This document shows positions 26,391 through 27,313 of a stretch of 64,000 bases of DNA, piece by piece. The position numbers were made by a program, and so were the translations under genes. Origin of the DNA: an uncultured Gammaproteobacteria bacterium (GTDB taxonomy: Bacteria; Pseudomonadota; Gammaproteobacteria; JAADHQ01); the NCBI GenBank assembly GCA_947258755.1, contig CAMYJO010000008.1, positions 1 through 64,000 of the forward strand, written 5' to 3'. Below the pieces are notes generated by a model, which was not told where the DNA came from, searched no databases, and saw only the letters and a program-made list of their open reading frames with translations. The first letter of the stretch is position 1, and every line of letters begins with the position of its first letter.

Positions 26391-26412
26391 GGAGAGGTGT
26401 CTGAGCGGCTTA
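26391..26412 (+). pseudogene. Truncated tRNA-Ser 5' fragment
   Basis: 22 bp identical to the 5' end of the functional tRNA-Ser at 26557 (GGAGAGGTGTCTGAGCGGCT plus TA). It stops in the D-loop, and a cluster of hairpins follows where the anticodon arm should be. No 3' half is found in place. It is a relic of a duplicated or disrupted tRNA gene. Confidence 0.85.
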
Positions 26413-26413
26413 C

Positions 26414-26508
26414 AAAATCGTCAGGAACGATTTTGAGCGACCTGCGGTCGACCCCGTAGGGGCGGAGGGCATGGACAGCCCGGAGTAACGAGCACGTGGC
26501 GTGCTCCG
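26414..26508 (+). repeat. Hairpin cluster replacing the body of the truncated tRNA-Ser
   Basis: Five consecutive hairpins in under 100 bp. AAAATCGT/ACGATTTT with loop CAGGA (26414-26434). CGACC/GGTCG (26438-26450). CCCC/GGGG (26452-26462). GGGC/GCCC with loop ATGGACA (26467-26481). GAGCACG/CGTGCTC (26490-26506), extended by CGGAG/CTCCG. No open frame is supported. Confidence 0.75.
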
Positions 26509-26556
26509 TTCCCAAAGTAATATGATTGTATTTTGAAGTGATTGAGTAAAATACCT

Positions 26557-26646
26557 GGAGAGGTGTCTGAGCGGCTTAAGGAGCACGCCTGGAAAGTGTG
26601 TGTACGTTAACTCGTACCGAGGGTTCGAATCCCTCCCTCTCCGCCA
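26557..26646 (+). tRNA. tRNA-Ser(GGA)
   Basis: A complete 90-nt class II tRNA. Acceptor stem GGAGAGG pairs with CCTCTCC, followed by discriminator G and encoded CCA (26644-26646). D-arm TCTGAGCGGCTTAAGGA, anticodon loop CTGGAAA with anticodon GGA (reads UCC/UCU), a long variable arm (GTGTACGTTAACTCGTAC) typical of serine tRNAs, and T-arm GAGGGTTCGAATCCCTC. It lies among repeat elements derived from itself. Confidence 0.97.
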
Positions 26647-26899
26647 CATAAGTAGTAGCTAGGGACTAGTAGCTAGTTGCGAGTAAAATCCTATCTAAGA
26701 ACTAGGGGAGGGATTAGAACCCTCGGTTATATTAAGCCGGTTCGACAAAATGCCACGGAAGGCATTTTGCACAGCGCGATAGCGCTGCCCCGAAGGGGCG
26801 AGTCCCAGGAGGGGACGAGTGAATCCCTCCCGGAGTCTCAGAGCCTATCCTGTTATAAAAGTGTCATACTCAAATATCCTTTTATATTTCTTTCCGCCA
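26641..26899 (+). repeat. tRNA-Ser-derived hairpin repeat, copy A
   Basis: Begins with the tRNA 3' end and an AGTAGCTAG-rich flank. GGGAGGGATT (26706-26715) opens an inverted, degenerate tRNA-Ser piece: its reverse complement reads like the D-loop (CGGCTTAA) joined to the T-arm. Next come hairpins AAAATGCC/GGCATTTT with loop ACGGAA, AGCGC/GCGCT, GCCCC/GGGGC and GTCCC/GGGAC with loop AGGAG. The element closes with AATCCCTCCC (26822-26831), the inverse of its start. The copy ends with a decayed tRNA 3' end, TTTCCGCCA (26891-26899). CCGCCA at 26641 and 26894 sets a period of 253 bp. Confidence 0.8.
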
Positions 26900-27313
26900 T
26901 TAAAAATAGTAGCTAGTTGCGAGTAGCTAGTGGCTAGGAAAAGAACAGGAAAACTAACCAGGGAGGGATTAGAGCCCTCGGTTATATTAAGCCGGTTCGA
27001 AAAAATGCCATGGAAGGCATTTTTCACAGCGCGATAGCGCTGCCCCGAAGGGGTGAGCCCCAGGAAGGGGTGAGTGAATCCCATTGCCCAAGGAAGGGCC
27101 GGTGTCGCGCAGCACACGGAAGTGCGAGAGCGACCATTGCCCAAGGAAGGGCCGGTGTCGCGTAGCACACGGAAGTGCGAGAGCGACCATTGCCCAAGGA
27201 AGGGCCGGTGTCGCGTAGCACACGGAAGTGCGAGAGCGACCTCCCGGATTATCAGAGCCTATCCCGTTCTAAAAGTGCCATACTCAAATATCCCTTTATC
27301 TCCCTCTCCGCCA
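26894..27313 (+). repeat. tRNA-Ser-derived hairpin repeat, copy B, with nested insertion
   Basis: Same order as copy A: CCGCCA, AGTAGCTAG flank, inverted tRNA-Ser piece from 26961 (GGGAGGGATT), hairpin AAAATGCC/GGCATTTT with loop ATGGAA (27002-27023), AGCGC/GCGCT, GCCCC/GGGGT, CCCC/GGGG with loop AGGAA, then AATCCC. Here the closing AATCCC-CTCCC is split by a 3 x 53 bp tandem repeat (27081-27239). The copy ends with a well-preserved tRNA 3' end CTCCCTCTCCGCCA (27300-27313). The CCGCCA spacing is 414 bp; minus 159 bp of insert it is 255 bp, matching copy A. Confidence 0.8.
27081..27239 (+). repeat. 3 x 53-bp tandem repeat (hairpin units)
   Basis: Three near-identical 53-bp units start at 27081, 27134 and 27187; unit 1 differs from the others at one base (CGCGCAGC versus CGCGTAGC). 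Each unit folds into GCCC-AAGGAA-GGGC and a longer hairpin GTCGC...GCAC-ACGGAA-GTGC...GCGAC. There is no spacer between units, so it is not a CRISPR array. Short open frames across it on both strands are artefacts of the repeat. Confidence 0.92.

Follow-up and report, generated by a model that had tools for sequence, protein, structure and literature searches.

GGA-loop hairpins around a gammaproteobacterial tRNA-Ser gene form a composite of mobile palindromic DNA

Background

Sponge RNAs of the CsrB/CsrC and RsmX/Y/Z kind carry many ANGGA hairpin loops in series. An ANGGAX hexaloop placed directly on a stem is the published high-affinity motif of CsrA/RsmE (PMC4005645). The SELEX consensus for CsrA is RUACARGGAUGU, mostly with no more than four contiguous stem pairs, and a CsrA dimer bridges two sites that are 10-63 nt apart (PMC7652899). 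RNAs that arise by read-through of stable-RNA operons can also bind CsrA, as do RrA, RrB and RrF, which come from rRNA operons of E. coli (PMC8144298).

Several repeat families of bacterial DNA have comparable architectures. RtT RNA (Rfam RF00391) represents the tyrT repeats of E. coli, which follow a tRNA gene and contain an inverted T-arm, the sequence GGTTCGA, hairpins, CGAGTAATCC and a duplicated tRNA 3' end. REP sequences and the CGTC- and GTAG-tagged repeats are short palindromes dispersed between convergent and tandem genes, either singly or in clusters (PMC3733652). IS5-type MITEs are bounded by characteristic ends and 4-bp target duplications of the YTAR type.

The window studied here is a 64,000-nucleotide stretch from an uncultured gammaproteobacterium (genomes, contigs and loci are cited by G, C and L numbers). 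A sequence-only reading had proposed that hairpins with GGA loops around its tRNA-Ser(GGA) gene might form a CsrA-titrating RNA, the alternative being a selfish palindrome family in which GGA is incidental. We conclude that mobile palindromic sequences of several kinds, anchored on a tRNA gene, make up the region, and that it is not a dedicated regulatory RNA gene. Like the sponge RNAs, it presents multiple GGA (ANGGA) hairpin loops in series, 12 in all, but unlike them it shows neither an Rfam CsrB match nor a promoter signal above chance expectation, its repeats are dispersed and mobile, and it is disrupted in relatives. The array is not homologous to RrA, RrB or RrF.

The hairpin array and its parts

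All 12 of the plus-strand GGA hairpins previously listed are present around tRNA-Ser(GGA) (Table 1), and interspersed with them are GGA-less hairpins, absent from that list, with loops GATA, GAA, TGG and TGC. Positions 26301-27400 contain nine perfect hairpins with stems of at least six pairs, and GGA occurs in the loop of four. Dinucleotide shuffles of the same segment (n=200) gave on average 1.33 hairpins (maximum 5) and 0.095 GGA-loop hairpins (maximum 2). No larger cluster than the eight GGA hairpins in 27001-27231 was met at any scanned locus, 464 kb of the same genome included, and the folding of 26640-27320 is more stable than that of its own shuffles (z -5.3, 20 shuffles). Hairpin scans of the genome refer to these sampled stretches, totalling 464 kb, and the other surveys are model searches. 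GGA-loop hairpins overall, with all stems of six or more pairs, show no enrichment in the 464 kb; only C-closed ANGGAN loops stand above background, in a sample that was chosen partly around matches.

Table 1. Features of the array, by position in the window
Feature	Position	Strand	Basis
Copy of tRNA-Ser 5' end, 24 nt	26389..26412	+	Direct repeat D5, 100% identical to 26555-26578
Upstream hairpin cassette	26413..26506	+	Sequence, hairpin scan
Hairpin, loop CAGGA	26413-26435	+	
Hairpin GGGC-ATGGACA-GCCC	about 26468-26484	+	
tRNA-Ser, anticodon GGA	26557..26646	+	ARAGORN; Rfam tRNA 48.9 bits
AGTAGCTAG dispersed repeat	26654..26676, 26908-26937, 27322-27344	copy 1 +	Separate repeat family
tRNA-3'-end unit 1 (RtT-like)	26706..26836	+	Repeat D1; Rfam RtT 40.2 bits; cross-genome covariation
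Hairpin, loop ACGGAA	26746-26769	+	
Hairpin, loop AGGAG	26802-26816	+	
tRNA-3'-end unit 2, plan as unit 1	26961..27081	+	93% identical to unit 1; RtT 21.7 bits
Hairpin, loop ATGGAA	27001-27024	+	
Hairpin, loop AGGAA	about 27057-27071	+	
GCCC-AAGGAA-GGGC (three) and GCAC-ACGGAA-GTGC (three)	27083-27241	+	
53-nt two-hairpin element, copy 1 (C-AAGGAA-G, C-ACGGAA-G)	27083..27135	+	Model R1, 71.2 bits
53-nt two-hairpin element, copy 2	27136..27188	+	Model R1, 71.6 bits
53-nt two-hairpin element, copy 3	27189..27241	+	Model R1, 71.6 bits
tRNA-Ser 3'-end copy, closing the array	27300..27313	+	Repeat D6 with 26633-26651

The array is made of repeats: two 122-nt units, three 53-nt units, three copies of a AGTAGCTAG repeat and 24 nt copied from the 5' end of the tRNA. 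The D-arm of this 5'-end copy is disrupted by the adjoining upstream cassette, in which CAAAATCGT-CAGGA-ACGATTTTG, two GGA-less hairpins, GGGC-ATGGACA-GCCC and GAGCACG-TGG-CGTGCTC are combined; at the orthologous place the sister species G002 has GGGC-ATGGAT-GCCC. Each tRNA-3'-end unit, 122-131 nt long, opens on an inverted T-arm, either GGGATTAGAACCC or a near match to it, and goes on with a copy of the T-loop, GGTTCGA, which in both units is broken by four hairpins before GAATCCC resumes. Hairpin loops in unit 1 are, in order, ACGGAA, GATA, GAA and AGGAG, followed by GAATCCCTCCC. Those of unit 2 are ATGGAA, GATA, GAA and AGGAA, and its 3' part is divided by three tandem 53-nt elements. The tRNA 3'-end copy that ends the array reads CTCCCTCTCCGCCA. 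The short AGTAGCTAG repeat has about 30 further matches in the genome.

Resemblance of the tRNA-3'-end units to RtT RNA

In a relaxed search, unit 1 matches all 130 positions of the RtT model (40.2 bits, E 2.8e-6); this is below the cut-off of 45 bits, as is unit 2 with 21.7. G025 has a homologous unit, also behind tRNA-Ser, that exceeds the cut-off with 58.4 bits, and units in G015 and G018 score 42.2 and 40.6 bits. The G018 unit lies behind a tRNA-Gln gene and copies the 3' end of that same tRNA-Gln. Because of these matches in the window and in the three other genomes, together with the tRNA-Gln copy, sequence comparison assigns the window units, which contain a repeated tRNA 3' end and immediately follow a tRNA gene, to the RtT-like repeats. 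They differ from the E. coli repeats in following tRNA-Ser (tRNA-Gln in G018), in that two of their four hairpins have GGA loops, in scoring below the cut-off, and in containing further inserted elements.

The stems of the RtT-like units covary across genomes, with double changes in 10 of 18 pairs. In the same genus, in G012 and in G018, the loops of hairpins 1 and 4 are of the GGA type, either GGA or GGGA, the exception being one ACGAT loop in the genome under study. In G017, G025 and G015, all of which possess csrA, the same hairpins have GCA or GAA loops.

Related arrangements occur elsewhere. Another such array is directly behind csrA and tRNA-Ser(GCT) at L009 (G000:C18, minus strand, about 2996-2130), and in G012 (L107), csrA and tRNA-Ser(GCT) are accompanied by two GGA-loop units in succession; this synteny of csrA and tRNA-Ser may simply be old. 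In G002 (L047:6100-6165), a tRNA-3'-end cassette with GGA-less hairpins (AGGAAGGC-TAGA-GCCTTCCT) is a counterpart of window positions 27375-27418.

A mobile 53-nt element

A genome-wide search for the hairpin units, which the sequence-only reading had called for, was made with a covariance model (R1) of the 53-nt element that was built from GGA-loop copies and is biased towards such copies. It returned 44 matches in the genome, with about two dozen places outside the array, and found the element in 64 of 276 Gammaproteobacteria. Among the places that could be classified with a simple ORF model, eight are between convergent genes, five are oriented with both neighbouring genes, four are against both and one is between divergent genes. 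There is thus no orientation bias in this genome (5 versus 4) or in G113, where four copies are oriented with genes and four against. At 5 of 24 places an intrinsic terminator is directly upstream, with no gap, such that the TTT of the element merges with the T-tract. Named plasmids contain no match to the element or to the array.

In G113 there are at least 20 near-identical copies, few of which lie outside a 205-bp element that has the ends GGAAGCTCTGAATAAG and CTTATTCAGACCTTCC and YTAR-type target duplications, for example CTAG or TTAA. About 20 near-identical copies of this IS5-type MITE (L173-L192) carry three or four GGA-loop hairpins each. Two complete MITEs of the G113 type, with target-site duplications CTAG and TTAA, carry the 53-nt element in the genome under study; from their ends and targets, we take the MITEs of both genomes to belong to the IS5 family. 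Although these full carriers share with IS5-type MITEs the ends GGAAGCTCTGAWTAA and the 4-bp duplications, most 53-nt copies, including those of the array, have no such ends. Sister species differ at the orthologous site between ftsH and folP: G001 lacks the element there, whereas G000 and G002 have it, with different stems but the same loop type. Because copies are dispersed, MITE carriers have target duplications and the ftsH-folP site is filled or empty, the 53-nt element is mobile DNA. About a dozen copies in the genome (L129, L130, L133-L141) are inside a palindrome, GTCATTGCGAG...GCGCGGCAATCT, that resembles a widespread bacterial repeat.

With its many dispersed intergenic copies, the element is comparable to REP and the CGTC- and GTAG-tagged repeats. 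However, its unit consists of two different hairpins, in which the stem sequence is free and the loop is fixed.

Conservation of the loops and recognition by CsrA

Among 115 hexaloops (70 distinct sequences), entropy is near 0 for the A at position 1 and the GGA at positions 3-5, but reaches 1.2-1.8 bits at positions 2 and 6, which vary almost freely. Of 140 loops, 130 are closed by a C-G pair. Stem compensation amounts to 69 double-sided cells in one count and 86 in another, the latter derived from 36 distinct sequences, mostly of other genomes. Copies that have lost GGA are few, and they still score 41-56 bits with the covariance model. The GGA loops of the 53-nt element are therefore under real constraint. 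Thus, the proposal of a selfish palindrome family is upheld as to the family and its dispersal, but GGA is not incidental, given that conservation extends over GGA, the flanking A and the C-G pair whereas the stems covary.

The distance from GGA to GGA is 25-27 nt in most copies, and the inner stems have 4 bp. The element accordingly fits the hexaloop-on-stem motif, the short-stem SELEX pattern and the dimer-bridging distance alike, and the host CsrA is near-identical to a solved RsmA over 58 residues. Recognition by CsrA would be the simplest account of the exact loop pattern, an explanation whose chances we judge to be about even. Because GGA, the adjoining A and the closing pair persist while stems covary, it is plausible that CsrA would bind any transcript from the array.

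Two further observations concern this regulator. A second, divergent CsrA-family gene is at G000:C15:69714-69914 (37.6 bits, versus 91.1 for the main gene). At L080 (G000:C2, minus strand, about 14095-14130) there is a perfect 12-bp hairpin with a CsrA-type loop, GAGGACGCCTAC-AGGGAT-GTAGGCGTCCTC, that is unrelated to the 53-nt element.

The distribution of csrA is weakly associated with that of the element: csrA is present in 61 of 64 carriers and in 181 of 212 non-carriers (p=0.048, kinship ignored), and is undetected in three carriers (G049, G111 and G179). We dropped this association as support for CsrA recognition, the p value being too weak. An excess of NNGGAN hairpins linked to csrA looked promising by copy count in 20 genomes, but disappeared with distinct hairpins and more genomes; in random 80-kb samples, csrA-positive genomes taken together have no excess of distinct NNGGAN hairpins.

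Possible origin and alternative explanations

An explanation of the whole region, in which our confidence is evenly divided, is that mobile palindromes settled on a tRNA gene, where RtT-like units were invaded by the 53-nt element, and that the loops were kept by CsrA/RsmA recognition. RtT-type units with hairpins in their T-loop copy stand in tandem behind tRNA-Ser, and were invaded by a two-hairpin element that spreads as DNA and elsewhere resides in IS5-type MITEs and directly behind terminators. The constraint on the loops would reflect binding of CsrA/RsmA to RNA transcribed from the elements, with a dimer bridging two sites, and transcribed copies may act as small CsrA decoys or as local CsrA targets. 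If the window array titrated CsrA at all, this would be a side effect of stray transcription. Against decoys count the lack of orientation bias and the fact that 5 of 24 places in the genome immediately follow an intrinsic terminator and should yield little RNA.

More tentatively, we suggest a widespread gammaproteobacterial family of mobile palindromes whose signature is a high-affinity CsrA/RsmA site, and of which tens of mobile decoys per genome could shift the pool of free CsrA. Each 53-nt unit would offer two ANGGAN hexaloops, 25-27 nt apart and suited to one CsrA dimer, and would move between carriers such as IS5-type MITEs, tRNA-3'-end repeats and terminator tails.

The main rival to CsrA recognition is a DNA-level reader of the loop, that is, a mobilizing or replication protein that reads the hairpin as single-stranded DNA, so that any likeness to the CsrA motif would be a coincidence. 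HUH/Y1 transposases read hairpins as single-stranded DNA at REP and IS200/IS605 ends. Such a reader would suit an element that spreads as DNA on multiple carriers without orientation bias, and the genome has three transposase genes of the Y1 type. However, none of the three has an ANGGA hairpin in the flanks searched (up to 1.5 kb), and in contrast to REP sequences, the 53-nt element was not found flanking any Y1/RAYT gene; the candidate of a REP with a RAYT transposase was rejected on these grounds. Moreover, 53-nt stems are free to change whereas REP families have set stems, and the fixed A and GGA, the variable positions 2 and 6 and the C-G closing pair are exactly the CsrA/RsmE pattern. 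We consider a DNA-level reader possible, if rather doubtful.

A dedicated sponge resembling CsrB or RsmZ and transcribed by read-through from tRNA-Ser, as the sequence-only reading inferred, is unlikely. The 12 GGA hairpins have the orientation of the tRNA, no intrinsic terminator was seen between tRNA-Ser and the array in this species, and the precedent of E. coli read-through RNAs is favourable. The usual sponge is also unaccounted for, in that CsrB (RF00018) has no match anywhere in the genome; CsrB, RsmY and RsmZ have none in the window at Rfam cut-offs or in 26300-27500 at E<=5. However, inspection by eye placed an intrinsic terminator between tRNA and hairpins in G002 and G012, a script did so in G002 and G017, and the homologous RtT-like units of csrA-positive genomes have GCA or GAA loops, and therefore sponging by tRNA read-through is improbable. 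Array content also differs between sister species, and a pattern scan of the array gave one promoter-like site (0.7 expected) and two terminator-like sites (1.4 expected). Units that are dispersed mobile DNA without orientation bias lend no support to a dedicated gene.

That the units constitute a functional RtT-type RNA, released from the tRNA transcript as is E. coli rtT and with GGA loops as a lineage feature, is very improbable, since the full-length match in the window and the above-threshold unit of G025, both behind tRNA-Ser, are offset by the sub-threshold window score, by the three elements inserted in unit 2 and by an RtT model that has no GGA loops at the corresponding places.

Conclusions

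RtT-like repeats reach past E. coli tyrT, to several tRNAs and several families. In this region three types of repeat, namely RtT units, IS5-type MITEs and dispersed hairpins, are joined, which holds even without a role for CsrA. Our literature search returned nothing specific on CsrA-binding palindromic repeats or on RtT, nor did it find a link between repeat copy number and a global regulator. If the loops are CsrA sites, copy number could tune such a regulator, and selfish repeats would supply post-transcriptional regulatory sites across Gammaproteobacteria.
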